A stretch of DNA of 64,000 nucleotides from Blastocatellia bacterium (GTDB lineage: Bacteria > Acidobacteriota > Blastocatellia > Pyrinomonadales > Pyrinomonadaceae), in the NCBI GenBank assembly GCA_003168335.1, contig PMSM01000010.1:595588-659587 (forward strand), read 5' to 3'. Positions 20,898 to 48,242 of this stretch are shown here, in pieces. A program made the translations under genes and the position numbers. The notes beneath the pieces are model-generated. The model did not search any database and was not told the origin of the DNA. It saw only the letters and a program-made list of their open reading frames with translations. Position 1 is the first letter of the stretch, and every line of letters begins with the position of its first letter.

Positions 20898-20973
<76 letters not shown>

Positions 20974-21033
20974 ATTCTTTCAATCACTTACAAGAATTCC
21001 CCATTTCGCCGCGGGTCCAGAAAGGTCCATTAA

Positions 21034-24557: not shown

Positions 24558-27500
24558 CTAGAAGTCGAAGCCCAACTGCATTTCGCTCGCGTCTCGTCCT
24601 GACTGTGACTCGGATACAAGGACAGTTGACGGCGGCGTCAAAGCAAAGTCGGATCTCGCTGATGGCTCTACGGCTGAAACGGGAAGCGGTTCTCCAAGCG
24701 CCTTATGTCCGTTGCCTGAGCATGGTTCGGTTACCGCAACAATCCACTGGTCAAGGTCAACGACCTGCGCCGGTGGCATCTCCGGCGCTATCTCTAGCTC
24801 CGTCGCCTCGTCCTGGGCTACTTCGTCTACGAGGATCGGGTAGCGAGTGAGCAAGGCGGTCAATATTTTAATTCCGGCTATCTCATCAGTCGGAACAAAG
24901 AATCGCTGTTTCCAATCGATTTGCTCATTGATCAAGCCAAGGTTGCGTAGCTCTGCGAACTTGTAGGGATCGGCTCCGCATAACTCAATGAAAGGCTCTC
25001 GGTGAACGAATGCTCGGCGAAGTTTGAGGCCGGAAACGAGTGTGACTTCTTCGCCTTCGTCCAGGATGCCGGCAAAGATCTCGTCTGGCTCGCGGAGATC
25101 GCGAGTCGAGCCCAGCGCTCGCACAATCACCCCAACCTGTTCAGGCGGGATGCGAATGCCTACAATCCGCTGCCCGTCGTCTGTGGTCACTCGCACCACA
25201 CGCAAGCGGGCATCTTCGTGCGTCTTGAATCGTTGCCAGAGCGGGATGATTGCCCCGCCAATGATGTGAGTTTCGAGAGTTTCAATCGGCGGCACGGTGG
25301 CGTGCTTTTGCGCCCACCATTGACGCGCCTTGCTCGGATTAACAGCTCGGTACTTCTCGGCCAACTCGTCGTCGTGAATGTAGCTGGCTCGCGGTGCTTC
25401 CGGCTTCCAGACCGCAAAGCTGCGATAACTGTTTCCATTCTCGGCGTTGGTGTGAAGTCCAGATTCAACCGCGAGAATGAAGTGACCATTCGTGCGATGG
25501 CGAAAGAAGGCTCCGGTCTTGCGCTTCCTTACGCGCTCGGCTTCGTCGAAGCTGACAGCCCTAGAAGGCACGTCAATCTCCAAGGTGTAGTGCGTAGTTT
25601 GGGCGTTGGTGATCTCGTCGGTATGCACTACGCGCTGAGGCTTTGCGATCCGAATTGCCAGAGCCTTGATGTCGGTCACTCCCTCATCAAAGGTTCCGTT
25701 AGCCTTGGCGTAGCGAACCGTCTGATCGAATAGATCCACGAAGTGATCGAATAGCGCGTTCTGGTGCTCAACGTCCAGGGCGAGCACGCGGTTAAGAAAC
25801 CTCGGCACGTTATAGAGATCGTCTTTGCGCACTTCTTCGCACCCGTCGCGGTTCCTGACAAGTAGGCCAATGTCGCGCAAGGTCTGACGGGGATTGCCGA
25901 TTCCTGGGACATTGCCGCTTTCGACGATCCGCCGCAACATGAGACACAAAGCCGCTCGGCCTTCTTCCGTCTCAAAGTTGTACTTGGCGAGGTCGCCGCT
26001 ATCGGCTGCGCCTCGGTCGCCTTTGGTCAAAGCTCCCAAGCTGCCAAGCCGTCGCGCGATGGTTGAACTAAAGCGCTTCTCTCCGCCAAGCTCGGTTGAG
26101 AGTAAGACGTATTCTGGCGGAACGGCCTGATCTGATCGGTGTGTCCGGCCAAAGGTCTGCATTTGCTTGTCTGCACTCCAACCAAGCTCAAGAGTGATGT
26201 GTACGCGGCGCTGCTTGTTCTCGGCGCGATTCGAAGCATGAAGCGAGATTCCCATAGCGGCGGCATCACTAATAATCGCAACGCGCTTCTTGCCCGATTG
26301 AAACTGTGCCATTTCGTGAACGTTGGTTCGGTGCATCGCGACACCTTCCGGCGCGCGCTTCTTGTATTCGACGCGTCCGCGCGCGTCGCGAATCAGACGG
26401 CGAGTTCTTCCAGTAAGCTCGGCAACATTGCGCTCGCCAAAGTGATTGACAAGCTGGTCTAGCGGGTTTTCTGGAAGCTCTAAGGCTGACAGGCCGTCGA
26501 TAACCGCTTGCTTCATTCGCAGGGCTTCCTTGCTCTGTACGGTGTTACCCTGCGCGTCTCTGACAGGCACTTGGATTGTCTTGCCCGTACCTGGGTCGGT
26601 AACGTCTTGATAGAGCGTCGTGGGAAAGCCGCGATCGACCATGGCGGCGATTACTTCGCGCGGTGAGAAGTCCAAGTCCTCAAGCATGCCGCCGTTGGCC
26701 GTAGCTTTCGCAACCTGCTCGCGGGTCCTGGCTTCGCCGGTTCCTACTAGCGAGATCACAATTGACTTGCCTTCGCTCAAAGCTGCTTCGGTTTCCGCGA
26801 TCACACTCGGCACCTTGAAAGCGCAGATTACCTGTCGAAAGAATCGCTGATGATCTCCCCAAAACTTGGTGAGCGCGTTAGCTCGGGCTCGTGGTCCTCC
26901 GTTGGTAACCAATAGTGCTTCGTCGATGTTACGTAACACGGTCTGCCAAGCGGCGGCGGCGCGGTTGTACATTTCGCGCTGCTGCGGTGTCAGTTGGTGA
27001 ATACGCTCGCGGTACTCAACGGCCTTGCCGCTCTCGGGGCACACCCCGAATGAGATCGAACCTGAGAGATACATGCCGAGCGCTTTCATGTCGCGGCTGA
27101 CCATTTCCATGGCGCCAACACCGCCGGACTCAATCTCCTGCATGAACTCTTGAAAGCCGCCGGGAAAGCTGGTGCCTTCTCCCCACAATCCAAGGCGAGT
27201 CATATAGGCCATGTTGCGCACGTCGGTTGCTCCGGTAGCTGATGAATAGACCACGCGATAATCGCGGTTACGCTCCGGGTCCTGTAGGTCAATGACGGCT
27301 TGGCCGGTGAGGGTCGGTTCTCCGCGTCCACCGGCTAGGGCGTTCTTCGCCTTATGCGCTTCGTCAAAGACCACTACGCCATCACTGCCAAGCCATCTTT
27401 GGATTTGGTCTATGCGCTTCTCTCCCGTTTTGGCTGCGGCGATCAAGGATGAATAAGAGCTAAAGATAACTCCGCGCGGTAAGGCAATCTCTCCGGCTGG

Positions 27501-28973
27501 CGGGTAGTCATTGATTCGAGCAAGGGGAATACTCTCTAATCCAAGGTCGGTGAGATCGCGGCGCGTATCTTCCAGCAAGTCATTATTGACAGACAGCCAC
27601 AACGCGCGCTGGCGTTCTTGATTCCAGTTGTCGGCGATGATGCCGGCGAGGATGCGGCCTTTGCCGACGCCCGTTCCGTCGCCGACAAAGAAGCCGGCGC
27701 GTGAGCCGTCCGGTAGTCGCTGCTCGTGTCGCTGTCCGGCGTAGATCACGCGTTCAAGCTGAATGTCAGAGAGTCGTCCTTCGGTAACAATCTCCGGGGC
27801 AAGGTGTGGTCTATGGGTAATGTCTGGCGGTGTGACAGCGGCCATTGATGCCGATTCCACGATTACGGCCGGATGCGGTCTGCCGCCTCGTAGCTTAGCG
27901 GGCAAGTAAGGGACAAATAGATTTCCGCTCGGCTCTGAATCGTCTGGATCGTCGTCAGGTATTGGTGACGGCTCGACTAAGTGTTTGAGCGCTTCCCAGG
28001 CATCCTCAAGCGTGGCTGCGCTTCCCCAACTGATCTGCTTTAGCTGCTCTTGCCAGCTCGCTCCGGGTGTTGCTCCCGTCTTATCAATGACAAGGATTTG
28101 AACGTCGGGCGCGGCTCCGTATTTCGCATATTCTTTTCCGTCCAGGGTGAGGTTTGCGCGGACATTGCAGAGACAAGCGATCCGTTGCCACCATTCGCTA
28201 AAGCTCGGATGGTGGAAGCTCATCGCTTCGCTGACAATGGCAACCAAGCGCCCGCCGTCCTGGAGTCTGCGCAAGGCGCTGGCTACGTGTCGGGCTCCGT
28301 AGAGTGGATTTGTTTTCGTGACTCTACCGCTGGTGGAGCTAAACGGCGGGTTCATCAAGACTGCGGTCGGTTGAATCTCTGCGGGTAGCAGGTCGTCGAT
28401 AAACTCGGCATCAAGCGGAAACGCATCGAGGTTAAGGACACAGCGAAGCAATGAGTTTCGCCGCGAGCTTGTCTCGTTACAGATAACCTTCGCGCCAACA
28501 GCGCGAGGCCAGATCGCGAGGCTGCCAGTTCCAGCTGACGGCTCTAGAACGATATCGGTCGGCTTCGGGTCAAGTAGTCGCGCGGCGAGGTAAGCGAGTG
28601 TTGGCGGTGTCGAGAATTGCTGTAGCTCGGTCTGCTCTAACGTGCGATCCGTTTGTCGCGGTAGTCGCTGCATCAATGGACGCAGGACGGAAGCAAGCGC
28701 CTCGGTCACGTCCATTTGCATTAGCTCTCCGGCGTGTCTCTCTAGCAGGTAGTTATTGACGGCGATTTCTACGGCGTCGTAAGCATCGCGCGGCGTGTAC
28801 CTGCCTTGCGCTCGCGTCCCGCCAAACACCCTCTCGGCGGTTCGGGTTAGCTTGGGGTTGTCGAACGGTTCCCCGTCCTCAATGCGTTCTTCCAATTCGG
28901 TAATCAGTTCGTGGATGGCGCATACAATTGCGTTTGTCCTGGCTGCGCATAGAGCTGTAGTCTTATCCGGCAT
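24558..28973 (-). CDS. Giant N6-methylase / strawberry-notch helicase fusion
   Basis: 1471 residues. An N-terminal SAM methylase has motif I EPSAGTG at 144-150 and the catalytic NPPF at 208-211, the N6-adenine type. A strawberry-notch-like superfamily 2 helicase follows: Walker A GDGTGVGKGR at 431-440, DEAH at 537-540, and a C-terminal helicase lobe with FGRTHRSDQA and LSTELGGEKRF. The final 450 residues have no motif I know. Proteins of this build are carried by plasmids and ICEs; they are thought to modify and remodel the element's DNA, possibly against host restriction. The gene leads a leftward run with the next gene 13 bp away. No frameshift is visible. Confidence 0.85.
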   Translation of the reverse strand: MPDKTTALCAARTNAIVCAIHELITELEERIEDGEPFDNPKLTRTAERVFGGTRAQGRYTPRDAYDAVEIAVNNYLLERHAGELMQMDVTEALASVLRPLMQRLPRQTDRTLEQTELQQFSTPPTLAYLAARLLDPKPTDIVLEPSAGTGSLAIWPRAVGAKVICNETSSRRNSLLRCVLNLDAFPLDAEFIDDLLPAEIQPTAVLMNPPFSSTSGRVTKTNPLYGARHVASALRRLQDGGRLVAIVSEAMSFHHPSFSEWWQRIACLCNVRANLTLDGKEYAKYGAAPDVQILVIDKTGATPGASWQEQLKQISWGSAATLEDAWEALKHLVEPSPIPDDDPDDSEPSGNLFVPYLPAKLRGGRPHPAVIVESASMAAVTPPDITHRPHLAPEIVTEGRLSDIQLERVIYAGQRHEQRLPDGSRAGFFVGDGTGVGKGRILAGIIADNWNQERQRALWLSVNNDLLEDTRRDLTDLGLESIPLARINDYPPAGEIALPRGVIFSSYSSLIAAAKTGEKRIDQIQRWLGSDGVVVFDEAHKAKNALAGGRGEPTLTGQAVIDLQDPERNRDYRVVYSSATGATDVRNMAYMTRLGLWGEGTSFPGGFQEFMQEIESGGVGAMEMVSRDMKALGMYLSGSISFGVCPESGKAVEYRERIHQLTPQQREMYNRAAAAWQTVLRNIDEALLVTNGGPRARANALTKFWGDHQRFFRQVICAFKVPSVIAETEAALSEGKSIVISLVGTGEARTREQVAKATANGGMLEDLDFSPREVIAAMVDRGFPTTLYQDVTDPGTGKTIQVPVRDAQGNTVQSKEALRMKQAVIDGLSALELPENPLDQLVNHFGERNVAELTGRTRRLIRDARGRVEYKKRAPEGVAMHRTNVHEMAQFQSGKKRVAIISDAAAMGISLHASNRAENKQRRVHITLELGWSADKQMQTFGRTHRSDQAVPPEYVLLSTELGGEKRFSSTIARRLGSLGALTKGDRGAADSGDLAKYNFETEEGRAALCLMLRRIVESGNVPGIGNPRQTLRDIGLLVRNRDGCEEVRKDDLYNVPRFLNRVLALDVEHQNALFDHFVDLFDQTVRYAKANGTFDEGVTDIKALAIRIAKPQRVVHTDEITNAQTTHYTLEIDVPSRAVSFDEAERVRKRKTGAFFRHRTNGHFILAVESGLHTNAENGNSYRSFAVWKPEAPRASYIHDDELAEKYRAVNPSKARQWWAQKHATVPPIETLETHIIGGAIIPLWQRFKTHEDARLRVVRVTTDDGQRIVGIRIPPEQVGVIVRALGSTRDLREPDEIFAGILDEGEEVTLVSGLKLRRAFVHREPFIELCGADPYKFAELRNLGLINEQIDWKQRFFVPTDEIAGIKILTALLTRYPILVDEVAQDEATELEIAPEMPPAQVVDLDQWIVAVTEPCSGNGHKALGEPLPVSAVEPSARSDFALTPPSTVLVSESQSGRDASEMQLGFDF

Positions 28974-29061
28974 CTGGCTTTCTCCTTGAAGTTGGGCAAA
29001 GTCACGGTGTAAGCGGCGCGGGTGGTAATGACACCCGCGCCACTCTTTTCTTTGGCTGTCG

Positions 29062-29370
29062 TTAGTACTCAGACGGAAGCAAGAGCGTCGTCGCGCTTCT
29101 GTCTGCCTCGGTGATGATCCAAAGCTGTTGGCCCTTGCCGGTTCGGTAGTTGCTCAACAGCCGGAACCCTTCCTTTAGTGAAAGCTCGTTCTCGCGGAGA
29201 TCGTCCTCTGATAGCTCTCCCCAATCGCAGGACATGTGACGGCGCAAGAATTCAAGCTCCGTCTGTCCGGCTATTTGGAGCGCTTCTTCTGCTCCGGGCG
29301 TAATGAAGGTTTGACCCAGCGCAAAGCGGGTCACGCTGGTTTGCGGGGCTGTGTTATGGTTTCGTCGCAT
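29062..29370 (-). CDS. Conserved plasmid/ICE protein of unknown function
   Basis: 102 residues. The sequence FALGQTFITPGAEEAL, ELEFLRRHMSCDWGELSEDD, RLLSNYRTGKGQQLWIITEA and TTLLLPSEY matches a small protein often found beside ArdC- and methylase-helicase genes on plasmids, sometimes misnamed as a restriction subunit. Its role is unknown. It starts after AAAGGAGAAATG on its strand, a strong ribosome binding site. It lies between the ArdC-like gene and the methylase-helicase, all leftward. Confidence 0.8.
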   Translation of the reverse strand: MRRNHNTAPQTSVTRFALGQTFITPGAEEALQIAGQTELEFLRRHMSCDWGELSEDDLRENELSLKEGFRLLSNYRTGKGQQLWIITEADRSATTLLLPSEY

Positions 29371-29458
29371 CGATCATTTCTCCTTTAGCGGGTGAAAAGT
29401 TGGTGCCTGGGCTAGGCGAGCGTTGACGCGCTTTCCTAGCCCCTTCTGTGTTCAAGGC

Positions 29459-30304
29459 TCACTCCCCTTGTTCGTCCTGCTCAGGCTGTAATCGTCCGGC
29501 CCGCAGGATTTGATCTGCACTGCGGAGAATCTTCTGGGCGCTCTTTTCGGGGATGGCGTCGCCGTTATAGCCAAGGGCGGGGCATAGCCAGTTCTGGATA
29601 TAGCCTCGGCAGTATTCCGCGCCTTCGAGGTTGAGCGCTTCGCAGCAAAGCATCGCGACTGCTTCCGCTTCGACTTCGCGCAGGTTCTTCGGCGTCCGTT
29701 CCGTATCGGTAAAATCTGCTTCGGTGGTGTGGCCTAGAATTACGTGGGCGGCTTCGTGAAATAGCGTCTTGTGCGGAAGCTGGGCCACGGGATTGATCGC
29801 GATCTGGCGCTTGCGGGCGTATCCCTGACAGTTGCCGTCCGTGTCGGTGAAGGTGATCTGCTCGATGTCGAGGGCGGCAAGCGCTCGGTCGGCGTCCCAC
29901 TCCGGCATACGTGGCGGCGCGAACTCATCGCCTGTGGTCTGGGTGATGACGAACCAGCGGGGCTTATGCACAAAAGCGGTGTAGGTGTGCTCTCCGTTGG
30001 CTTCGTCGGTGTTCGCGCTTGCTTCTTCGTCGCGGCTCTTGCGGGTGATCGGCATGCAAAGGATCAAGGCGCGCTCGCCGCGTTTGACGCATCGGCCTAG
30101 TGCTTGCCATCCGGGAAACGTATTGATCGGGCCGGGCTCTAAGCCCCGCAGCTGGCATTGGATCATCGCGAGTAGTTGATTGCCGATCGAGTAGTGGTGA
30201 AATGCGCTGTAAGCTTTCATGATCAAGCCGGGCTTGTTGACTGCCTCAACTAGCAAAGCTGACCACTTGGGAACGTCGGGCGCTGGGTTAGTGTGTCTTT
30301 CCAT
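29459..30304 (-). CDS. ArdC-like antirestriction protein
   Basis: 281 residues. The N-terminal ArdC-like ssDNA-binding domain has KWSALLVEAVNKPGLI, YSAFHHYSIGNQLLAMIQC and TFPGWQALGRCVKRGERA. The C-terminal domain is a zinc metallopeptidase with the HExxH site in FHEAAHVILGHT and downstream VEAEAVAMLCCEAL. Family members such as ArdC of pSA protect incoming single-stranded plasmid DNA from restriction. The ICE would need this on entry. It is preceded by a 150-nt structured region at 30358-30506. Confidence 0.9.
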   Translation of the reverse strand: MERHTNPAPDVPKWSALLVEAVNKPGLIMKAYSAFHHYSIGNQLLAMIQCQLRGLEPGPINTFPGWQALGRCVKRGERALILCMPITRKSRDEEASANTDEANGEHTYTAFVHKPRWFVITQTTGDEFAPPRMPEWDADRALAALDIEQITFTDTDGNCQGYARKRQIAINPVAQLPHKTLFHEAAHVILGHTTEADFTDTERTPKNLREVEAEAVAMLCCEALNLEGAEYCRGYIQNWLCPALGYNGDAIPEKSAQKILRSADQILRAGRLQPEQDEQGE

Positions 30305-30357
30305 TGGTCGTGTTCCTTTCGCGTTGCGTGGTTTGGGGTCTTTGTCTTAAGAACAAG

Positions 30358-30506
30358 AGTTTTCCCCCTTCGTAGCGACGTTGGGACACGGGTGGGTGCT
30401 CGACCGACACAGGCACTGCCGGAACGGAGTGGAGGACTCGGAGGCTTTGCGGAGAGTTGTCGGGCGGGCTCCCGTGGCACAATGAGAGCGCAGAAGGGGG
30501 AAAACT
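30358..30506. ncRNA. Candidate structured RNA or leader upstream of the ArdC gene
   Basis: A perfect 14-bp stem closes the region: AGTTTTCCCCCTTC (30358-30371) with GAAGGGGGAAAACT (30493-30506). Inside it nest CACGGG/CCCGTG (30387-30392, 30471-30476) and CCGACA/TGTCGG (30404-30409, 30458-30463). Within those lies the hairpin CACTGCCG-GAA-CGGAGTG (30414-30431) and an ACTC/GAGT hairpin (30436-30457). Properly nested helices at this density suggest selection on RNA or cruciform structure. The direction is not determined; if leftward it is a leader of the ArdC gene. Confidence 0.55.
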
Positions 30507-30632
30507 AGATTAGATTTCTCGTCTCGGCTGGAATGGAACGCAGTGGAATGAAGGCTGAAGTCCTTATTGAACTCAGGGTGGGGAGCTAATATTTTGAACG
30601 AGTCGGGTGAGGGCTGATGCCTTTCCTTTTTT

Positions 30633-30699
30633 GATTTCGCTGTGCGACGTGAGCGGTCTGTTGTAACGCTTCCTGGGCCCAAAAACCGTCAGCGAAATC
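30633..30699. repeat. Inverted repeat GATTTCGCTG/CAGCGAAATC
   Basis: GATTTCGCTG at 30633-30642 is the exact reverse complement of CAGCGAAATC at 30690-30699, around 47 bp. It lies in the 600-bp gap between the ArdC and kwaA genes, in which I see no convincing gene. Confidence 0.6.
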
Positions 30700-30746
30700 T
30701 CTGTCGCTGCATGGTGAACGGAGACTGTGATCAGTCGCCGGGCCTG

Positions 30747-30775
30747 GAGAATCGCACAATCGCAAGCCTGACCCC
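30747..30775 (-). repeat. REP-like element, left of the defence island
   Basis: A 29-bp word GAGAATCGCACAATCGCAAG plus CCTGACCCC matches the word at 37688-37716 at 25 of 29 positions, and an inverted copy lies at 37593-37621. The CCTGACCCC end with a GAATC half is typical of REP elements scattered by REP-associated transposases. Confidence 0.65.
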
Positions 30776-30904
30776 GGGTCGATATTTTGATTTCGACCTA
30801 AAAGGAAATATACTGCGACTGCTCAACCTCGCACTTCCCGGTCTTCACGAAGACCTGCAATCTGAAAAGGAGGAACTTGGCAACCAAGTGCCCGGCCTAA
30901 ATCA

Positions 30905-31465
30905 ATGTGGCAGAAGATAGAGCTTTACATAATTTCGCTCTGGTTCTTATTTCTGTTGATCCTCATCAACAAGCTTAACATTCCGCTCTGCTTTGGAACT
31001 GATTGTAAGTTCATTGGAACTTACGAATTGCTTCGCCTCAACATCGTACCAACAATTTCGCTCGTCTTTCTCATCTTGGGTGCGTTCTTTTACCTACGCT
31101 TCGACTACAAGATTGTAAAAGGAGCGCCTGCGCTTCCAAAGAAAATTACTCGTGTCGAAGACTTATATTTCGAGAATCTTGCCTTCTTAATTACATACAT
31201 TATCCCCCTTGTCGGTTTTGATCTCGATGGTACGCGCAACAGGTTAATGCTCTTTCTAATGCTTGTGTTGATCGGGTGGTTTTATGTGAAGGCGAACATT
31301 TTCTACACAAACCCCTCGCTAGCCGTCCTGGGTTACAGGATATATAAGGTTGATACGCTTGAGTCCAACAACATGATCGTTATTGTCAAAGGCCGCCTCA
31401 GGGTCGGGGACAATATTTACCCACGAGAAATAGACGAGAACATTTTCTTTGTTAAAGGTGCATAG
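30905..31465 (+). CDS. kwaA: Kiwa anti-phage protein KwaA (membrane)
   Basis: 186 residues. Four transmembrane helices are visible: about 5-25 (LYIISLWFLFLLILI), 46-66 (NIVPTISLVFLILGAFFYL), 90-105 (ENLAFLITYIIPLVG) and 112-130 (RLMLFLMLVLIGWFY). A soluble tail follows with AVLGYRIYKVD and IVIVKGRL. KwaA senses infection at the inner membrane and acts with KwaB. Identification rests on this topology and on the KwaB gene three bases downstream. The region is AT-richer than the flanking ICE genes, a sign of separate acquisition. Confidence 0.85.
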   Translation: MWQKIELYIISLWFLFLLILINKLNIPLCFGTDCKFIGTYELLRLNIVPTISLVFLILGAFFYLRFDYKIVKGAPALPKKITRVEDLYFENLAFLITYIIPLVGFDLDGTRNRLMLFLMLVLIGWFYVKANIFYTNPSLAVLGYRIYKVDTLESNNMIVIVKGRLRVGDNIYPREIDENIFFVKGA

Positions 31466-31467
31466 AA

Positions 31468-32433
31468 ATGAATACTCAGGAACTCTCACAGGCGCTACAG
31501 TTCTTGTTGGATCCCAACAACGAGATTGGCTTGTCTATGTACTTCGTTTTGCATACGAACGGTGACGCCGAAATTAAAAGAGCGGACATATCGGACGAAG
31601 TTAGACTTGAACTTACGTCTCAGTTAACGGAATACATCACACATACTCTTGTAGAGAACCAGGAGCTCATTTTTCAAGACATCAGCACAGCTGATACTAG
31701 AAGAAACTCTGCTTACTATTATGACTTGGATGAGGTGCCCAACGGGTTAAAGGTTATGGGTGCACTCCTCGAGGATGAGAATCGGGAACTATTCAATTTC
31801 AATACTGACACTTACGAAGAGATTTTTGCCTTCGTTTTCTTAATCGGAAACGAGACTGACAAGATTGCATTATATAAGAAGCATTATCCCATCAATCTAT
31901 TGAAGCGCGATTCCATTCTCAGGTTGATCAAATCGGGCACGCGCCTTGTCGAGGTCGAAGAGGACATTATTAGTCTCAACGAAAAGATTGACTTCCTGCA
32001 GGTTGAGGAGAATGTTGTTGTTCTTAACGTGCGCACCCTAGAGAAGTTCTTTGGTTTCGAAGAGGTAATTAGAAACCAGGCGCAGCTTAGTCTTGGTGTA
32101 ATCGACGGCGTAGGTTTCATCGCTAGCATAGAGCCGTTGCAAGAGATGCTGGCAGATTCATCATTTGCGAGGAAGCTCATGCGCGTCAAGGCTGATTCGC
32201 CAGTGTTGCAGCTACCATTCGACAGAGTGCGCGACTTTATTAAGCAACACCCGAAGTTAAGAAGAAGGATAAGATTTAACGAAGGCGAAACTCGGATCTC
32301 TTTGGACACAAGAATGTCGAAGCAATTGTTCCTAAAGTTGCTTGACGATGATTTTCTCAAGTCTGATCTCACACAGTTCTTGTATGAAACTGAGATCAAG
32401 AATCGCTTGACGAATGAGGAAGCTGCTGACTAA
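31468..32433 (+). CDS. kwaB: Kiwa anti-phage protein KwaB (DUF4868)
   Basis: 321 residues, matching the usual KwaB size of about 315. The DUF4868-type body includes YYYDLDEVPNGLKVMGALL, FAFVFLIGNETDKIALYKKHYP, KIDFLQVEENVVVLNVRTLEKFFGFEE and ARKLMRVKADSPVL. Known KwaB binds DNA and, with KwaA, stops phage DNA replication and late transcription. The start lies two bases after the KwaA stop, and its stop TAA overlaps the ATG of the next gene (TAATG), so three genes are translationally coupled, one more than the standard two-gene system. Confidence 0.87.
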   Translation: MNTQELSQALQFLLDPNNEIGLSMYFVLHTNGDAEIKRADISDEVRLELTSQLTEYITHTLVENQELIFQDISTADTRRNSAYYYDLDEVPNGLKVMGALLEDENRELFNFNTDTYEEIFAFVFLIGNETDKIALYKKHYPINLLKRDSILRLIKSGTRLVEVEEDIISLNEKIDFLQVEENVVVLNVRTLEKFFGFEEVIRNQAQLSLGVIDGVGFIASIEPLQEMLADSSFARKLMRVKADSPVLQLPFDRVRDFIKQHPKLRRRIRFNEGETRISLDTRMSKQLFLKLLDDDFLKSDLTQFLYETEIKNRLTNEEAAD

Positions 32434-33221
32434 TGAGAAAAGACTGCTGGATTCAGCCTCAGAGCATTCAAGAAGAATTGGAAGATTTCTTCTCGGAGGT
32501 GGACAGTGACTTGTCTTCCTTCTATGAGGAAAACCCCAACACCGCCGAACCGCAACTCGATGGTTCTTTCATTCGTTCCCTAACTTCGAAATCATTCGAT
32601 CTTCACGCGAAACGGATTAATGCGGTACGAAGACGCAATCGACGTCAGCCGGTCTACCTCAAAATAAAGGCTACGCCAATTACCGCTACTGAACGAACCT
32701 ACGGAGCGGATATTGGGCTCGTAGCACGGGTAAGCGTTCCGGGCGAGCATGAAATTACAAAGGCAGCATTGGTTCAAAGTAAGCGGCTATATCCGAATAT
32801 GCTCAACGCGTTCGACGAAAAGTGTTATTACAAAGAATTATTTGGAGGGAACGCCAAGACCAAGGTTCTTCCACAATGGAAACGAATGTTAGATCAGACC
32901 GCCTCTTCCTATTACTTTTTATATAACCCTGAGAGACTTCGGATTGGAAAGAACCTTCAGACATTGAAGACGAGAGTTCTCCCTGCCCAGGTTGTTGCCG
33001 GAATGGCAACTTCGAGAGCGGTTTACACACCCACGCAGTCGGTTAAGTTGAATTCCTTTTCTGAATGGATCGTTGAAGAGTTTGTTTGTTGTAATGTCGG
33101 CGATACTCGCGAAAACGTAGTTGAGATTGCGATGGGAAGCAATCCTGATTTCCCAGTCCGACACTCTGTTGTAGTTGTTTTAGATGCGAACGAAGCTCGA
33201 GCCGAGGATTTTTCTCGCTAA
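32433..33221 (+). CDS. Kiwa-coupled protein with a D-QxK nuclease-like motif
   Basis: 262 residues, overlapping kwaB by one base. No signal peptide or membrane segment. The segment GADIGLVARVSV, then GEHEITKAALVQSKRLYP, puts D93 and Q115-S-K117 on neighbouring strands, the layout of Mrr-like members of the PD-(D/E)xK nuclease fold (D, then QxK). The rest, including YYFLYNPERLRIG and FSEWIVEEFVCCNVGDT, is not recognised. I infer a third Kiwa component or a nuclease effector; a separate defence gene that happens to follow kwaB is the alternative. The family is not one I can name. Confidence 0.6.
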   Translation: MRKDCWIQPQSIQEELEDFFSEVDSDLSSFYEENPNTAEPQLDGSFIRSLTSKSFDLHAKRINAVRRRNRRQPVYLKIKATPITATERTYGADIGLVARVSVPGEHEITKAALVQSKRLYPNMLNAFDEKCYYKELFGGNAKTKVLPQWKRMLDQTASSYYFLYNPERLRIGKNLQTLKTRVLPAQVVAGMATSRAVYTPTQSVKLNSFSEWIVEEFVCCNVGDTRENVVEIAMGSNPDFPVRHSVVVVLDANEARAEDFSR

Positions 33222-33297
33222 ATAAGCTTGATGTCACGTCTCCTAATTATTGGTGCTCCAAACGCAGGTTCCAAAGATTCTCAATTCGCTAATTGAG

Positions 33298-34626
33298 TTA
33301 ACGCGAGGACTCGTTCCTTTCGTTTCGTCTCGTAGCGTCAGCGAAGATTTCGAGGATACGGGCAGAGGGGTAAGTAGAAAGAGATGCAAGTCCGTTCGCA
33401 AGCTCAACAGGAAGAAGTCCACCTTCATAGCGGTTGCTTAGAATGCTGGGAAGCGTCGCAAAAATCCTTGCCGCACCGATGAGGTCTCCAAATTCAGGAT
33501 CCGGTTTGTGGTCTCCCGTAGGTATGTTCAAGACCATCTGATGGTGAGCATTGAGCTTCACTAATACCTTGGCACCATAATTTGTGTCCTTACCATAAGG
33601 CGCGCCCTGAATTGGTCTATGCTGGATTTGCTCTTTGATGTAGGCGTCGCCCGGAATGAAATAGGCTCCGGTGGGAGCGCTGTCACCGATTGTTCCCAAA
33701 TGGTCCGCAAATCTGCCAGTCTTTTCTTGTCCGATTATGTGGACAGGGTAACCCTGCTTTGCCGCAAACGATAAGAACCGTCGTATGGGCGCGACCAACT
33801 TTGAGTATTGAGCCCTTATCGACAAAGGACCATCCTTCACGAAAAGACAGTTTGTTAGCGTGCCTTTGCTATGCTCCCAGAAATAACGAACGGCACTGAA
33901 GAGCAGCAACGTCTCGTGAATAGCCATATATGCATTAGCCACAGAGTCAGGCGCGGCGTCTTGCGCCATTTCTTGGTGAAAACCGAGCATGTCAGTTACG
34001 TATAACTTCTCATGACACTTTGGACAGGGACCTTCCTCGGAGTCGTAAGCTAGGCTAGCTATATTCTCTTCGCAATGGGGGCACTCAAAGAGTGGTAACC
34101 GCTTTTTATTTCCATCCCATTTTTCGTAGGCAATCCACTTCAATGTTTCGAGAGGTTCCCTATTTAATGATGCATCGCAGACCGACTCATAAATGATCTG
34201 CCGAATGGCATGATAGGTATTGAAGCCGGGTATCTGTACATTTCTCAGGGGGAAAACAGTTGCGTGATAAAGAGCTGAATCAGCGAGGATGTCCCTAAGC
34301 GCGAGAGGATGCGGAGTGTGCTTGTTGACTTGAGCGAGCGCGTACTCGTCGAGGCGGAGGAGAGCCGTCTTAACAAATGCGAGTGCTTTATGGGGAGGAA
34401 CAGAAGACTGGATAGTTTGAATGGAGCCGTCAACTGCAAACACTATCGCTAACCGTTCCGAACCTACTGGAAGCCTCTCCCAAGCGACGGTTGAAGGAAG
34501 TGAGGTTGTGTCTTTGTCTTCGAAGCTCCTGCATAGCTTCTGAACTAACTGGCTTTTGAGGACATCAAGATGTCCTAGCTTGCTTGCCCTTTCTGGCGGC
34601 AAGCGTTCACCACCTTGATATGGCAT
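33298..34626 (-). CDS. nurA: NurA-domain nuclease with zinc ribbon
   Basis: 442 residues. NurA is a Mn-dependent 5'-3' nuclease that works with HerA. The first metal Asp lies in IVFAVDGSI (D66), with further acidic or family blocks LFVKDGPLSIRAQYSKL and PVHIIGQEKTG. The C-terminal part has GAKVLVKLNAHHQMVLNIP and a final IFATLPSILSNRYEGGLLPVELAN helix pair. A zinc ribbon ECPHCE...GPCPKCHEK is inserted near residues 185-215. The start lies 8 bp after the HerA stop. In bacteria, such HerA-NurA pairs in defence islands degrade phage DNA. Confidence 0.88.
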   Translation of the reverse strand: MPYQGGERLPPERASKLGHLDVLKSQLVQKLCRSFEDKDTTSLPSTVAWERLPVGSERLAIVFAVDGSIQTIQSSVPPHKALAFVKTALLRLDEYALAQVNKHTPHPLALRDILADSALYHATVFPLRNVQIPGFNTYHAIRQIIYESVCDASLNREPLETLKWIAYEKWDGNKKRLPLFECPHCEENIASLAYDSEEGPCPKCHEKLYVTDMLGFHQEMAQDAAPDSVANAYMAIHETLLLFSAVRYFWEHSKGTLTNCLFVKDGPLSIRAQYSKLVAPIRRFLSFAAKQGYPVHIIGQEKTGRFADHLGTIGDSAPTGAYFIPGDAYIKEQIQHRPIQGAPYGKDTNYGAKVLVKLNAHHQMVLNIPTGDHKPDPEFGDLIGAARIFATLPSILSNRYEGGLLPVELANGLASLSTYPSARILEIFADATRRNERNESSR

Positions 34627-34634
34627 ATCGTACC

Positions 34635-36641
34635 CTAACCTTTCAATTGAGCGCTCAAGGCAGTAAATTTACGAGCTTGTACCGATACTACAAATCTATG
34701 AGAGCGCGTGAGCATTCTCATATACCCAGGAGTTTTAGCTTGAAGGATATCAAGCTTTAAGCTCTCGTAAGCAACATTGAGCTTCGCCAATGCGTTTACC
34801 TCATCTTGGGATGAGAGGTGGGCAATGAAGAAGTTTTCAGTTTGCGCTAAGAGGTCCTTGTTAACCGTTGTCACAGACTGAGTGGAATAGACCATGCCTA
34901 TGTGGTATTTAGCTCCCTCCTTTGCAAACCGGCTGTAAATGGTTGTCACTTCCTCTGTCCTGGGGAAAAGGTTATGTGCTTCCTCAAAATAGAGCTGAAC
35001 GAAATGTGAACCTAAGTTGTTATTTGTGAACTTCGTTACTTGGTGATTAAAGACAGACCTCGATAGTTCATCAGAAAAATACTGCATCAATTGCGGGTTA
35101 GCATTTCCCAAATCCAATATCACGGTTTGTCCTTCATCAAGGAAGTCAAGAATCTCCTTTACAAAGTCCCCCGCTCGCTGGTCGTGATACATCCGGTAGG
35201 GCTGAATCATACCGGGTCCACTTCGACCCGGAGCAGGCTCCAAAAACTCCAAGAGCGCAATGTCGTCTGGGTCGAAAAGGGAGTTACCCGAACTAGATAC
35301 TAGGTTGGGATGGCTGGCGTTATTTCTCCTGAGGCGATTAATAATTTCGAACTCCTTTTGTAGAGAGCTTAGATTTGCAGGTTGGGTGGGTGTTGGAGAT
35401 ACACCCTCTGCAGTGTATGCCGCGTCTCTTAACGCCTGACTAAAACCGGGATTAAAACCACTCGGTGGATTTCCGCTGGGAGCAACTTGACGAATTCGGT
35501 TTTCATCAGCGGGGAAACCCGCTTTTTGTAGAACCGCCCAATAAATCTGTATCTTCCTAAAGGAGCGAGTCCGTTCACCACCAGGCTGAAGTTTGCCGAC
35601 TTCCTCTAACGAGGGTAGCTCGACGCTCGCGAAGCTTCGGATGTAAGCAGATGCTTTGCCGTCCTGCATCAATAGACTGCCCAAGATTGAGTGGGAGCTA
35701 CTTGGCTGCTCATAAAAGTTAAGTTTTAGAGGTTTGGACGGGGTAGCGTCTTTCTTGGTCACCGCATAAACCTCGCAACGGGTGGGAAAGGTGCTTTTCA
35801 GCGAGAGATTGCCGTCCTGCGGATTATCGTTTGCGTATTCCCCGGTAATGTCAAAAATCAGTTGCCCTACGTTCTTGGCTTGTCCGGTGGTCTCTATCAA
35901 ACTCTGAGCAATTAGTTTTACGACATTGCTCTTGCCCAGCCGGGTCTTCCCGAACATTGCAGTGCGAGCCGCCAAGAAATCCTTCGTAGAGACGTAAACC
36001 GTAACGTCTGGTTGTGGCTTATCTGGTAATGGAAGTCGACATTCAGTTAGTCGAAGTTTTCCTATTTCAAACCGATTGTCTTCGGGTACCATCGAGTTCA
36101 CTATAAGTTTCAAAACCTCATCGTTGGGTGCATAGACGCGATACTTATGAGCACTTACAAAATTGTTTAGGTCACCTGAGAACTCTAAGGAGTTATCGAC
36201 TTCTGGGTGCTTGTAAAACATCCCAAGAACACTAGTCTTCAGCGCTCCCCATTGAAGTTCGCTTGAAGTGAAAATATCCAGTTCTGGCATGGATTTCTTT
36301 TGCAGCTCAAAATAAGTCTGTTGTACTTCCTTGGAAAGCGGCGTAGGTGCAGATTCGAGTACTCTCAGCAACGTGAAGTGCGTCGGTAACGATTCTACGG
36401 TCGAGGGCATCATTATTAGCAGGGAGTTGCGAGGCACACCACCTACAGCTATCTTGAAGGGGTCGGAAGTGATTAGAGTCACTGTGTCATAACCGATTTC
36501 CAGTACGTAGCCAACAAATCGCATACTTCCATAGTTTTTTGCAGTCTCGTTTGCCTCCTCTTGAATCAGGAAGTCTTCGACGACCCTCAACGGATGGTTC
36601 TGTAGAGCCGCCTTGTCCAAAAAACTTTTCATGTTCTGCAC
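34635..36641 (-). CDS. herA: HerA-like DNA translocase ATPase
   Basis: 668 residues. The N-terminal part (about 1-210) resembles a HAS-barrel with VGYVLEIGYDTVTLI and GGVPRNSLLIM. The FtsK/HerA ATPase domain has Walker A GKTRLGKS at 231-238, preceded by ARTAMF, and an acidic Walker B pair in VQLYFEEAHNLFPR. VILDLGNANPQ precedes it. Further family blocks are IGMVYSTQSVTTVNKDLLAQTENFFIAHL and an Arg-bearing TPGYMRMLTRSHRFVVSV. HerA forms a hexamer that pumps DNA to NurA. Its start is 3 bp past the methylase stop. Confidence 0.9.
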   Translation of the reverse strand: MQNMKSFLDKAALQNHPLRVVEDFLIQEEANETAKNYGSMRFVGYVLEIGYDTVTLITSDPFKIAVGGVPRNSLLIMMPSTVESLPTHFTLLRVLESAPTPLSKEVQQTYFELQKKSMPELDIFTSSELQWGALKTSVLGMFYKHPEVDNSLEFSGDLNNFVSAHKYRVYAPNDEVLKLIVNSMVPEDNRFEIGKLRLTECRLPLPDKPQPDVTVYVSTKDFLAARTAMFGKTRLGKSNVVKLIAQSLIETTGQAKNVGQLIFDITGEYANDNPQDGNLSLKSTFPTRCEVYAVTKKDATPSKPLKLNFYEQPSSSHSILGSLLMQDGKASAYIRSFASVELPSLEEVGKLQPGGERTRSFRKIQIYWAVLQKAGFPADENRIRQVAPSGNPPSGFNPGFSQALRDAAYTAEGVSPTPTQPANLSSLQKEFEIINRLRRNNASHPNLVSSSGNSLFDPDDIALLEFLEPAPGRSGPGMIQPYRMYHDQRAGDFVKEILDFLDEGQTVILDLGNANPQLMQYFSDELSRSVFNHQVTKFTNNNLGSHFVQLYFEEAHNLFPRTEEVTTIYSRFAKEGAKYHIGMVYSTQSVTTVNKDLLAQTENFFIAHLSSQDEVNALAKLNVAYESLKLDILQAKTPGYMRMLTRSHRFVVSVQARKFTALSAQLKG

Positions 36642-36644
36642 CTC

Positions 36645-37454
36645 CTAATAATTGCAAACAAGGACCTCACCAGAGATATCAGTGCGCAACCCAGGTTGGC
36701 TGCCGGTTCCCCTCTTAATAGGGATTTTTCGGCTCCGTTTGTGAAGGAGAAGGATATCTGGATGAGACGACGTAGTCATTGCCCACTTAATTCCTCTTCG
36801 TGTTGCTCGCTTCAGTGCTTTGGCGAGACGCTTGTGGTCGGAGTAGGTGAATTGGGAGAAGACATAATGGTCATGTGACATTTCACGCTCGTTTGGTTTA
36901 TACGGAGGGTCCGAAAAAATAAAGTCATCCGCGGAACAAGTGTCTAGGACATCTTCAAAATCAGCGTGAATCAGCGATGCCCGCCGCAGTCTTGAAGCCG
37001 CCTCCAACAGGAGGTCCTTCGTCACGACCCACCTACGATCCTGCCCGCCGTATCCGACGTTGAATTTGCCGTTCGAGTTTTGCCGCCACATTCCCTTGAA
37101 GCAGGTTCGATTCAAATACAGTGTTCTTGCTGATTTGTGTATCAGGTCCTTAGAGTCATGCAAGTCTCGAATCTGGTAGTACCCCTTTTTGGTTGACGGC
37201 ATGGACTGGTACCTCCGCCAAACCGCGTTGGCGTCCTTTCTGATGCCACGATAGAGGTCAATTAGGTCCTTGTTGACATCTGTCAGAAGCGCCTTCTTCG
37301 GATTGAGAGCGAAGAAAATAGCGGCACCACCAACGAAGGGTTCGACAAATCTTCCGGGAATCTCAGCTCGTTCTGGCAGATGTTGGATGAGTTCCGCCAA
37401 TAACCGCTGCTTTCCACCGGGATACCGGAGAAAGTTAATTGTTTGTGCATTCAA
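36645..37454 (-). CDS. D12-class DNA adenine methylase of the HerA-NurA operon
   Basis: 269 residues, the usual size for Dam-type enzymes. Motifs in order: RYPGGKQRLLAELIQHLP (10-27, SAM entry), RFVEPFVGGAAIFFAL (motif I), LLTDVNKDLIDLY, and the catalytic FSDPPYKP near residues 188-195. It transfers methyl to N6 of adenine, site unknown. It is first in a tight leftward operon with herA and nurA (3- and 8-bp gaps), so it likely marks self DNA while the nuclease pair attacks unmarked DNA. Stand-alone orphan Dam is unlikely given this spacing. Confidence 0.88.
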   Translation of the reverse strand: MNAQTINFLRYPGGKQRLLAELIQHLPERAEIPGRFVEPFVGGAAIFFALNPKKALLTDVNKDLIDLYRGIRKDANAVWRRYQSMPSTKKGYYQIRDLHDSKDLIHKSARTLYLNRTCFKGMWRQNSNGKFNVGYGGQDRRWVVTKDLLLEAASRLRRASLIHADFEDVLDTCSADDFIFSDPPYKPNEREMSHDHYVFSQFTYSDHKRLAKALKRATRRGIKWAMTTSSHPDILLLHKRSRKIPIKRGTGSQPGLRTDISGEVLVCNY

Positions 37455-37592
37455 GTTTTAATCAGCCTCGGAATGGTCCATTCAAACAAGCGGAAGTGAG
37501 AGAAAGCAAAGTCACATCCTTGGCGGTGAATTTGCAGTATTAGACCTATGACGGGACAAGTCAAGAGTTAGACTTAAGTTCAATCCACAATC

Positions 37593-37716
37593 GGGGTCAG
37601 GCCTTCGATTCTCCGATTCTCGCGGTGACGTCATTCGCTCTCAGAATCCGGTCTAACTTCGTTCTAAGTAAGAGGCATCGAGGATCTGAGAATCGCAGAA
37701 TCCAAGGCCTGACCCC
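37593..37716. repeat. REP pair (BIME-like), right of the defence island
   Basis: The word GGGGTCAGGCCTTCGATTCT and nine more bases (37593-37621) is the near-exact reverse complement of 37688-37716 (AAGGCCTGACCCC end); they differ at two of 29 positions. The pair is a bacterial interspersed mosaic of two REPs in inverted orientation, matching the half at 30747-30775. No gene is evident in 37455-38105 apart from a GC-rich 18-bp palindrome at 37873-37890. Confidence 0.75.
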
Positions 37717-38105
37717 ATCAGTTGCAGCTTCGACCGACGAAAACGGCCCCGGCGTGTCCGCTATCGAAGTGGCTTCGCTTTCGAATCGACGTTGGCGTCC
37801 CCGCCCAACATAAACGCACGCATCAGCCATCTGGCCGAGAATGAGACTGCTTCCCTGAAAAACGCTCACGCAGCCGCCGGCGCCGGCGGCAGGTCGTCAA
37901 CGTGCGGCCAAGGAACTCCTCAGCGGTGAAATCCCGGAAGGGCAATCGTTGGAGGGACACCAGTCCTAATCATCATCGCGGCGCGCAGTTCGCAACCACG
38001 AGTTACCTGCGAAACGGTTGACTCTTTGTTTCGTCCATTGTTTTGTTCCATAAATGGCACATCGTCCGATTGGCGAAAATTACCGAAAATGCTATTCTCC
38101 GCCAT

Positions 38106-38378
38106 ATGGCGGCCTGTATCGTGTCATTTGTGGACTTGGACGGCATCCGTCATTCGGTTGAAGTGGAGGCAGAGGGCTTGTACGAAGCCTCGGTGTTAGG
38201 CTTGTGCGCCTTTCGAAAGCATGAGCTAGAACCTGGAGGTTTGACTCAGTTGGAGGTGGAGGTTCGCAGCTCTGTCACGCACACGCTGACTGTGAGAAAG
38301 GTTCAGGAATGGTTGCAGCGTGGTGTCAGGACACCAAAAGAGTCGATACTGAAGGAACGGTTACGGGCGTTACTCTGA
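38106..38378 (+). CDS. Small conserved protein of unknown function
   Basis: About 90 residues from the ATG at 38106; the frame opens 63 bp earlier but reads through non-coding-looking sequence. The chain MAACIVSFVDLDGIRHSVEV, EASVLGLCAFRKHELEP and KVQEWLQRGVRTPKESILKERL is an alpha-beta mixture without signal or membrane segment. I have a general impression of similar small proteins in soil bacterial accessory regions, but cannot name a family or function. Confidence 0.6.
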   Translation: MAACIVSFVDLDGIRHSVEVEAEGLYEASVLGLCAFRKHELEPGGLTQLEVEVRSSVTHTLTVRKVQEWLQRGVRTPKESILKERLRALL

Positions 38379-43349: not shown

Positions 43350-45737
43350 TTAGCGGCTACGCGACGCCGAAACTTCTCGCTCCTGTGCATGACTCTCTCC
43401 CCGCGCTAGCTCCAAATATCTTTCTCTCTCCGTCGCGTCATTCTGCCGCTCCGCGTAGATCTCCAGATTGATCTTTTCCTTGTCTGTGAACTTGGGCTCG
43501 CTGACCTTCGCCTCCGTAGCCAGCTCGCGCGCGGCATCGTGATAGTCCGAAGCTTTTTCAAAGTCTTTGACAAGCCGACCGTGATGCTCGCGCGCCGCGA
43601 GCTTTACCGTATGGCGATAATCTCGGTGGTCACTTGATTCAATGGCGCGGGCCAAGTATTCGGTTAGGGTTCGCGCTTCAACTTGGCGCAGCGTGCCCGT
43701 TTGGTGGTGACCTAAGTTCAGCGACGCTACATTCTTGCTGTCGAGAAAGTGCTGTAAGCGTTCCTTTGTTTGCTCGACCGCCAAGGCGGACGTGATCTCT
43801 CTGGCGACGGCTCTACCTTCCCAGCTAGTCTCAGGATCGCTTTTCGCTGCGGCTTTCTGCCAATCGTGCACCTCGTGCAATAGTTTGGGATCGCGCAGCG
43901 TTTCAGCGCTCGCCTCAAGCAAGTTGATTTGGTAGCGCTCGTACGTTGGTTCGGGCATGGTTTGGCCGTCACGAGCGCGCGAGCGCTGCTCAGATTCGTG
44001 GGCATTCTCAAGAACGCCAACCATCTCGCGGGCGAGATCACGGTCTGAAACCATCGGCTCGCGGCGTTTCTCAATCTGCCGAACGATCTCGCTTCGCACT
44101 TCTTTCAGATGCTCGACCTCGGCTGCAGCTTGTTCCCGCCCTGCTGGGGAATAGTTGAGCCGCGCCAATGACCGCAGATCCAGTCGGGCGGCACGTTCTG
44201 GGACTAGTTTGGCATCGTCTCGCCGTCGAGTGATCTGCTTGTCGAGCATTGCAAGCGACCAGCGATCCCCGCCAACTTCATATGTCGTCAGGTGAGCCGA
44301 AGCTTCAAAGTTCTCCAACCGCGCGTCTCTAGCCATTAAGTCAGCGCGAGCCACATTAAGCTGAGCCCCAAGCGTGGCGGCTTCGCTATCATTGCGAGGC
44401 GGCGCATTGTGCTCACGCGCGAGGCCCGCCCGCAATTTTTCCAGTTCCGATACTCTGTCTGGAAGATTCAACCTGACTGCTTGCTCCTGAAGTTCTGACA
44501 GCGTTTGGCGGTGCAGAATCGGAGTCAATTCCTTTTCGGCAGGGATTTCGTAGAGTCTTGTTATGCTCTGCTCAACTTTTGCTAAGTTCCCGCGGAGAGA
44601 GCCGATATCCTTTCCAAGCGCGGCAATTTTATTCTCTCGCGCTTCGTCGAGTTGTTCCAGCGTACCTATGTGGTTGGCGAGATCAGCTTCGATCATTTCA
44701 TTACGGACCGAATGATCGCCCTGGCTTATGCGCGCCGCTCGGGCAGCGGCGCGGCGTCTAACATCAAGTTCTGATATCTTCCGTTCCTCGTCAATCGATT
44801 GATCGATCACCTCGAACCTATAGGTCTCGCCGTGTCGGACGGCGCGGTCGTGCCACACCTCAGCAAAGGCCAGACGGAATTCAAACTCTAGCCGCTTGCC
44901 AAGAGCGGTGCGGAAGTCTGTGAAACGATCCTCCGTCATTTGCTGTTGTGGATTCCAACTAGCTGCGATCTGGGCAAGATCCATTGATGTTGTGCGGGAG
45001 TTATTCTTGTTTGCTCGTGAGTATTGCCGAGTCGCACCTAAATCGGCTCCCCTTTCTAAAGGAATAGCCTTCGTATTACGGTCTGACTCTTCCCTTTCCT
45101 TCTGATACTTGCGCGCAAGCCGTTCCCATATTTGCGCAGGCGTGAGTTCCGGTTGCTCTTTGGACTTGATGTAGAGTGCCTGTTGCTTTTCCACAGCCGC
45201 GAGAAACTTGTCTCCGATCCGTCCGTTGACGACGACCTCTTTCCCGTTTTCAGTCTCACGATGAGGAAGAAGGGGTTTCGGTATTCGGGCAATCCTCCTT
45301 GGCCTTCCGGTCTCCCGTTCAACGAACTCTTTACTCATCACAATGTGCGCGTGCGGATTTTGCGAATTGCGATGGATGCCAGCAACCCACGTAAGCTCTT
45401 CGGCATTAAGTTCCGCAGCCACTCCCTTCATTGCCTCACGCACCGCTTCACGAAATCGCTCCTGCCTTTCTTTTTCATGGCCACCCAGCTTGTCGAATTC
45501 TTCCGCTTCGATCATCACTGAGAAATGGATGAGGTCGTCCTTTTCAGGACGCCCATGGTCAGGGTCAAGGATGCGGTCGGCGCGATGGTAAGAAAGATTG
45601 TCCTGGTCGTCGCTGAACAAGCGTCGGGAGCCGGGACCCTCCCGTGCTAGGTCTTTGTCCCGCTCCGCGATATAGCGAGTGATGCGGCTGCCGCCGGCAC
45701 CGCCGCCGGTGGAGAGAATGTGAAAGAAGACTCCCAT
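43350..45737 (-). CDS. Relaxase of the MobA/MobL type
   Basis: 795 residues. The relaxase domain fills about the first 260: the three-histidine site is IHRNSQNPHAHIVMSK (H122, H129, H131), which holds the metal at oriT. Tyr22 in ITRYIAERDKDL is a candidate for the nucleophile. The remaining 500 residues are charged and mostly helical, likely coiled coil (e.g. DEARENKIAALGKDIGSLRG, ELTPILHRQTLSELQEQAVR), with no primase or helicase motifs. The enzyme nicks the ICE at oriT and leads the single strand into the VirD4-VirB channel. It is the last gene of the leftward transfer operon. MOBQ-type is a plausible class. Confidence 0.87.
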   Translation of the reverse strand: MGVFFHILSTGGGAGGSRITRYIAERDKDLAREGPGSRRLFSDDQDNLSYHRADRILDPDHGRPEKDDLIHFSVMIEAEEFDKLGGHEKERQERFREAVREAMKGVAAELNAEELTWVAGIHRNSQNPHAHIVMSKEFVERETGRPRRIARIPKPLLPHRETENGKEVVVNGRIGDKFLAAVEKQQALYIKSKEQPELTPAQIWERLARKYQKEREESDRNTKAIPLERGADLGATRQYSRANKNNSRTTSMDLAQIAASWNPQQQMTEDRFTDFRTALGKRLEFEFRLAFAEVWHDRAVRHGETYRFEVIDQSIDEERKISELDVRRRAAARAARISQGDHSVRNEMIEADLANHIGTLEQLDEARENKIAALGKDIGSLRGNLAKVEQSITRLYEIPAEKELTPILHRQTLSELQEQAVRLNLPDRVSELEKLRAGLAREHNAPPRNDSEAATLGAQLNVARADLMARDARLENFEASAHLTTYEVGGDRWSLAMLDKQITRRRDDAKLVPERAARLDLRSLARLNYSPAGREQAAAEVEHLKEVRSEIVRQIEKRREPMVSDRDLAREMVGVLENAHESEQRSRARDGQTMPEPTYERYQINLLEASAETLRDPKLLHEVHDWQKAAAKSDPETSWEGRAVAREITSALAVEQTKERLQHFLDSKNVASLNLGHHQTGTLRQVEARTLTEYLARAIESSDHRDYRHTVKLAAREHHGRLVKDFEKASDYHDAARELATEAKVSEPKFTDKEKINLEIYAERQNDATERERYLELARGESHAQEREVSASRSR

Positions 45738-45763
45738 CTTTTGTTCGCTACTCGCTAAGGGAG

Positions 45764-46306: not shown

Positions 46307-46311
46307 AAGTT

Positions 46312-48231: not shown

Positions 48232-48242
48232 GGCGACCTCCT

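Follow-up and report, generated by a model that had tools for sequence, protein, structure and literature searches.

A DNA methylase, a HerA-type ATPase and a NurA-like nuclease in one gene trio: a candidate restriction-like immune module

What would bring an adenine DNA methylase, a DNA-pumping ATPase and a nuclease together in three tightly packed genes? The question is raised by a 64,000-nucleotide stretch of the genome of a Blastocatellia bacterium (assembly GCA_003168335.1, contig PMSM01000010.1, positions 595,588 to 659,587), which we call the window and whose numbering is used below unless a locus is named. The open reading frame (ORF) listing gives a trio spanning 37454–33298 on the minus strand, all three genes on that strand and separated by 3 and 8 bp: a D12/Dam-family adenine-N6 DNA methyltransferase (36645–37454; 269 residues, TTG start), then a HerA-type, TdpA-like ATPase/translocase (34635–36641; 668 residues, GTG start), and then a NurA/TdpB-like nuclease (33298–34626; 442 residues). 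An initial annotation of this DNA had described the same arrangement of D12 methylase, HerA and zinc-ribbon NurA, and the observation is confirmed by the ORFs, Pfam, NCBIfam, structure comparison and the cysteine pattern of the nuclease. We consider the trio to be, with a probability of roughly 70%, a restriction-like immune module in which the methylase would mark self DNA and HerA–NurA would degrade DNA that lacks the mark; this builds on the gene content, the fold matches, the conservation of the trio, the exchange of methylase types and the mobile and defence context, each of which was observed directly.

The first protein matches MethyltransfD12 (PF02086) in Pfam at 1.9e-42 and exceeds the NCBIfam cut-off for TIGR00571 (dam) with 191.7 bits against 114.85, its nearest solved relative being the DpnII methylase 2dpm (profile match 9.6e-67). 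Both the EPFxG stretch and the catalytic motif DPPY (residues 182–185, 36900–36911 on the minus strand) are invariant among the aligned methylases (10/10). In the aligned region, two places of the recognition loop set most methylases of the window's clade apart from DpnM and E. coli Dam, with FKG where the latter have FNG/YNG, and NVGYG where they have NVPYG/NVPFG; we take these two positions to be target contacts, and because the loop departs from both reference enzymes the target may be other than GATC. Identity to the other 11 members of its methylase clade is 46–59%, and to the best 25 of 2376 plasmid and 802 phage records 31–37%. The same methylase family serves type II restriction–modification (R-M) systems of the DpnII and AlwI kind, and plasmid relatives at 32–37% identity adjoin AlwI-family or other type II restriction genes: three of the five plasmid methylases examined are followed by a type II restriction gene, either immediately or after one small gene, the other two having none there. 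In the trio HerA–NurA occupies that place: unlike type II systems, it has HerA and a NurA-like nuclease instead of a site-specific endonuclease. An ordinary type II R-M system was ruled out, as neither of these two proteins matched a restriction endonuclease family in Pfam, PADLOC or NCBIfam.

The second protein matches DUF87, the HerA central domain (PF01935), at 5.5e-14, and its profile found TdpA (8wet) among solved proteins at 1.1e-38, the next solved HerA following at 2.3e-17. Its Walker A region (GKTRLGKS, residues 231–238, 35928–35951 on the minus strand) is conserved in 13/13 rows, in all of which G231, T233, R234, G236, K237 and S238 are invariant, and a Foldseek search with its model, which is of low confidence (predicted local distance difference test, pLDDT, 67.7), had TdpA as its top match (5.8e-18). 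The third protein was harder to place: Pfam returned nothing above cut-off for it, nor any NurA family when hits as weak as E 0.1 were included; NCBIfam and PDB sequences (the latter searched with the single sequence and with a profile) gave nothing significant, and as a single-sequence query it found nothing useful in viral contigs or in phage records. Because Pfam gave no match over cut-off, the NurA identity rests on structure. The AlphaFold (AF2) model of this protein (pLDDT 82.1) had as its top match in VIA chain G of the TdpAB complex (8wfd_G; Z 20.2 over 315 residues, root-mean-square deviation 5.0, 12% identity), which we take to be TdpB, followed by Sulfolobus NurA (2ygk, Z 14.5) and other NurA proteins (Z 10.3 to 12.5). 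Four residues, D66, E238, D265 and H309, are invariant in 18/18 rows and are putatively catalytic. The zinc-ribbon insert (C182, C185, C201 and C204; 34015–34083 on the minus strand) has a CxxC…CxxC pattern, C182, C201 and C204 being invariant (18/18) and the second cysteine shifted in some.

Because the nuclease model fits chain G best and the HerA profile fits TdpA best, the pair is, on profile and model matches, TdpAB-like and closer to TdpA/TdpB than to the repair pairs; no family ranked above TdpAB in the Foldseek and VIA lists, where the absence of others is no proof. The initial annotation had spoken of a HerA–NurA defence pair, which stands as to type and is refined in that the nearest solved relatives are TdpA and TdpB, not a generic HerA–NurA. 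These matches also bear on whether the pair could be housekeeping machinery for DNA end resection, repairing breaks next to a methylase that is an independent orphan. The canonical HerA–NurA repair pair consists of the same two protein superfamilies, and NurA proteins of Sulfolobus, Thermococcus and Deinococcus are among the structural matches of the nuclease model; we nonetheless regard end resection as very improbable, as the trio differs from that pair in its missing Pfam NurA match, its greater nearness to TdpAB, its methylase partner and its sporadic distribution. In the window's own phylum the nuclease profile described below matched 8 of 396 genomes, the window's included, and it had no match in the one same-genus genome listed (G025). 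The frequency with which a methylase lies beside such pairs is likewise ill-suited to an independent gene.

That frequency was established by counting neighbourhoods. A first scan of genome contigs, with the nuclease as query, yielded 14 loci, of which L015 is a weak match of 62 residues; four of the other 13 are cut or broken, and the nine that extend upstream of HerA all have a D12 methylase there on the same strand (9/9). A profile made from 18 nucleases was then searched against 1,914 genomes in seven phylum draws (396, 296, 350, 296, 245, 199 and 132), where 44 genomes matched at E 1e-10 or better, seven of these being draw centres known before; among plasmids, the HerA and NurA matches coincided in the same five. 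Together the genome and plasmid matches gave 57 loci including the window, 48 of them with a HerA–NurA pair and readable flanks. The nine excluded loci were L003, L007, L008, L014 and L061, in which the methylase side is cut or broken; L036, a nuclease fragment with no HerA match, though a methylase adjoins; L043, a 95-residue fragment with neither HerA nor methylase; and L066 and L067, two contig-end pieces of one genome, the latter with a methylase. Unused were the weak match L015, the sub-stretch L021, and L001 and L022–L029 (short stretches that were refetched with longer flanks, or the window itself), and the close relatives L038/L039, L052/L053, L058/L059 and L017/L019/L020 were each counted separately. 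An independent scan of IMG/VR added three loci on phage-type contigs, in all of which D12 methylase, HerA and nuclease follow in the same order (3/3), for a total of 51 pairs.

Methylases were detected with 16 seeds chosen among the neighbours, each confirmed by Pfam, together with an A2 profile, a detector that sees only families like its seeds. Among pairs of the window's own family, which the count covers, a methylase lies within 400 bp in 43 of 48 (40 on the same strand and within 91 bp, three on the opposite strand); two of the remaining five have one at 2.3 and 3.5 kb, and three have none. Once the phage-type loci are added, a methylase lies within 400 bp of 46 of 51 pairs, and 48 of 51 have one if the limit is widened to 4 kb. 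Beyond 4 kb the detector registered none in the 384,375 bp of flank covered; this zero background is a low estimate, because L031 has an Eco57I/N6_Mtase-type protein, 1.8 kb away from its HerA–NurA pair, that the detector overlooked. The window's genome (5.16 Mb) has two D12 and two PF01555 methylase matches, and a chance neighbourhood is ruled out by 46 of 51 pairs against four such matches in a genome of that size. Neighbour conservation had been proposed in the initial annotation as the check on its reading, and the methylase proved to be anything but rare beside these pairs.

Is it, then, always the same methylase? In the window's HerA clade (support 100/100) it nearly is: a D12 methylase lies upstream in 14/14 rows, in the same order and on the same strand, across Spirochaetota, Nitrospirota, Bacteroidota, Chloroflexota, Bacillota, Actinomycetota and the window's own phylum, with gaps between the trio genes of –10 to +11 bp except for –47 in L012, a value that depends on a longest-ORF start. 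Across the family kind and side vary, so that the earlier idea of a fixed methylase in front holds for this clade and for the three phage-type contigs. The 43 close methylases comprise 18 D12 upstream, five D12 downstream, 11 permuted PF01555 downstream, three permuted PF01555 upstream, three standard PF01555 upstream and the three on the opposite strand; a protein is called "permuted", on our own reading, when the end of the PF01555 profile is matched by its N-terminus. Pfam confirmed D12 or PF01555 for the window's methylase and for 14 others within 400 bp of their pair, the rest being assigned by similarity to these. On a HerA tree of 48 rows, which are not identical to the 48 counted pairs (L066 is included, the split L016 and the phage-type loci are not), nine states of methylase type and position require 13 changes, where shuffling gave 27 on average. 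Both this tree and that of the methylases are limited by long branches and by their midpoint rooting. In the methylase tree, 12 of the 14 clade rows (the window and its 11 closest relatives) form one clade (100/99), and the Bacillota and Actinomycetota rows group with a D12 methylase of a Roseateles plasmid (89/98). Because a single clade of all 14 methylases was rejected (approximately unbiased test, p 0.0065), HerA–NurA retains a methylase even through exchange. Within the clade, Mantel correlations of methylase distances with those of HerA (r 0.90 for 14 rows, 0.65 for 12) and of the nuclease (r 0.90 and 0.82, respectively) show shared descent rather than contact. On these sequence comparisons, a methylase of one kind or another nearly always accompanies the family's HerA–NurA pair, its kind and side varying.

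Exchange of the methylase could be read in a quite different way, namely that methylated or otherwise altered DNA switches on HerA–NurA, in a modification-dependent (type IV-like) or abortive response with the methylase as sensor or brake. The methylase is a separate gene of an exchangeable family and so might be a regulatory partner, and the SIR2–HerA system works via cell death according to the available part of PMC12926258. We think this unlikely: the invariance of DPPY and EPFxG points to active methylation, and neither SIR2 nor DUF4297 nor any other killing domain turned up for the trio in Pfam, PADLOC or NCBIfam. The antiphage systems SIR2–HerA (Nezha) and DUF4297–HerA, as described in the accessible text of PMC12948488, resemble the trio in combining a HerA ATPase with an effector partner, whereas the effector of the trio is NurA/TdpB-like and a methylase is added.

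As a restriction-like immune module the trio would work as follows. The methylase would place N6-methyladenine on host DNA; a HerA hexamer would capture DNA and translocate it into the NurA/TdpB-like nuclease; and DNA without the mark would be degraded, most likely from the ends of incoming phage or plasmid DNA, marked DNA being spared and the cell protected from phage. The steps from methylation to sparing are modelled on TdpAB and on R-M systems. The TdpAB partner TdpC writes phosphorothioate, and the trio would be a methylation-based sister of TdpAB: it shares the combination of a modification enzyme with a translocase–nuclease (8wet/8wfd), to which the HerA-type protein and the nuclease model are matched as described above, and it differs in that its modifier is a D12 adenine methylase and no phosphorothioation enzyme, with no further gene in the trio. 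Different methylases would be expected to write motifs of their own, with HerA–NurA remaining related. Since the methylase is exchanged and HerA–NurA kept, the reader of the mark might be the methylase itself, acting as a gate in the complex, or a sequence-blind methyl sensor in HerA–NurA. More tentatively, and we would not yet favour it, the family could represent a plug-in type of restriction: an engine without sequence specificity of its own that leaves alone any DNA bearing the mark of the methylase currently joined to it. D12 adenine and standard or permuted PF01555 methylases would have been exchanged repeatedly, the methylase alone would determine the choice of sequence, and the engine would read methylation regardless of sequence or be gated by the methylase. 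It would thereby stand apart from R-M types that rely on recognition of the same site by the nuclease or by a shared subunit.

The surroundings of the trio fit a defence role, because its copies ride on phage-type contigs and, in the window, in a cargo slot beside Kiwa. The initial annotation had placed it in a defence neighbourhood, and the Kiwa genes KwaA (30905–31465) and KwaB (31468–32433) indeed lie next door. Directly after KwaB, with a one-base overlap, is a 262-residue ORF on the plus strand (32433–33221) that matched nothing in Pfam, PADLOC, NCBIfam, PHROGs or plasmids and is possibly a third gene of the Kiwa operon. The phage-type copies have an integrase and a CI-like repressor (L083), a head maturation protease and a late activator (L084), or a terminase and a dUTPase (L082) alongside, and a DISARM-type DrmD gene lies near the Glycomyces copy (L013); PADLOC, run on 10 proteins of the window, matched none of the BREX and DISARM genes PglZ, BrxC and DrmA–C.

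The stretch from tRNA-Glu (20898) rightward to 48270 is, judging by its gene content, likely an integrative conjugative element (ICE), with an integrase (21034–22248; Pfam), a Strawberry-notch-type helicase (24558–28973), an ArdC-like protein (29459–30304; Pfam), a relaxase-like gene (43350–45737; weak matches) and a TraG/TraD coupling protein (46312–48270). Alignment of the window to the related element L072 delimits a cargo insert at 30571–38044 that holds Kiwa and the trio: 25531–30571 aligned at 84.7%, 38044–38360 at 77% and 43372–48701 at 73.5%, and no match over 60 bases was displayed inside 30571–38044. The genome G075, of the same family and another genus, has the same ICE backbone left of 30571 and right of 43372, with about 1.85 kb in place of 30571–38044, and its related element without the trio rules out the trio as ICE backbone. 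No exact repeat of at least 13 bases of the stretch 20881–21034, as might mark an attachment site, was found within the window.

Residence in an ICE raises the question of whether the trio instead aids DNA transfer, the HerA pump and NurA-like nuclease processing or exporting DNA as in the tdt operon of Thermus and the methylase protecting or marking donor DNA. The arrangement of a methylase beside HerA–NurA is in fact already in print for Thermus ICETh1, as a DNA transfer operon: the available portions of PMC5365140 and PMC7767461 describe a type IIG enzyme, a NurA-like nuclease, TdtA (of the FtsK/HerA family) and a PF01555 methylase, the first three being needed for DNA donation. By that published description the Thermus operon shares with the trio a HerA-family ATPase, a NurA-like nuclease and a DNA methylase on an ICE (PMC5365140, in the part available), and differs in gene order, methylase family, the additional type IIG enzyme and its reported role in donation. 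A transfer aid is improbable here, since a relaxase-like gene and a TraG/TraD coupling protein are already part of the window's ICE, the trio is not backbone, given that the related ICE has other sequence in that stretch, relatives occur in phage-type contigs, and the cassette has no type IIG gene. The initial annotation had known of no named type for the combination, and we found no named defence type of methylase plus HerA–NurA in the literature searched, which left subscription journals mostly outside: the accessible parts of two comparative papers on HerA-based defence (PMC10853773 and PMC12839542) do not mention NurA, and that of PMC7251087 contains no methylase–HerA–NurA operon.

Several observations weigh against the restriction-like immune module. 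The methylase detector missed the protein in L031, three of the 43 methylases close to a pair are encoded on the other strand, and in the two pairs with a methylase only at 2.3 and 3.5 kb the first is an HsdM beside HsdR. The three pairs without a methylase in their flanks are cyanobacterial plasmid pairs of one tight clade, and the annotation of the whole Tolypothrix plasmid (such tables are incomplete) lists no DNA methylase and one "methyltransferase domain-containing protein" of unstated kind; because these pairs have none nearby, the pair may do without a methylase or use one of the host. As for context, five of 10 clade-member neighbours had no PADLOC match at 1e-5, the neighbour in L005 that did match PADLOC is identified by Pfam as a WD40 protein, and the surroundings of L030 include argininosuccinate synthase and a glycoside hydrolase. 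Catalytic residues were assigned from conservation alone, and the Thermus operon of HerA family, NurA and methylase serves DNA donation, with a minor part for the methylase in transfer (PMC5365140 and PMC7767461, as far as available). Against these stand the methylase association and the phage-type, ICE cargo and Kiwa context, which support the restriction-like interpretation first offered in the initial annotation.

If that interpretation is true, base methylation would be tied to a HerA–NurA engine as phosphorothioation is to TdpAB, one engine could be served by different methylase families, and some HerA–NurA genes labelled "DNA double-strand break repair" on mobile elements and phages would be immune genes. 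It would also raise the question of how a nuclease without a known recognition site distinguishes marked DNA.

Some further features of these loci may be recorded. Upstream of the window methylase lies a possible, weak sigma-70-type promoter (TTGACT-17-AATACT, 37536–37564 on the minus strand; 9/12 consensus matches), in a region where nine such sites were found against 8.0 in shuffles, which is chance level. In L057 (10441–14460) HsdR-like and HsdM-like type I restriction genes lie directly downstream of a pair without a close methylase of its own. A UvrD-like helicase and a second small protein, of PD-(D/E)XK type in L048, directly follow HerA–NurA in L047 (10480–13964) and L048 (10419–13948) and with the pair possibly form a larger module; L065 has ORFs of similar length at that place, known by length alone. 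PtuA/PtuB-like proteins, of the retron Ec78 effector type, directly follow HerA–NurA in L052 (10361–13489), and at the same place in L053 there are ORFs of similar length, again known by length alone. The Deferribacter HerA gene in L016 (6126–9924) is interrupted by an IS200/IS605 element with TnpB. In the window, five imperfect direct repeats with a period of about 40 bp occupy 23846–24068.

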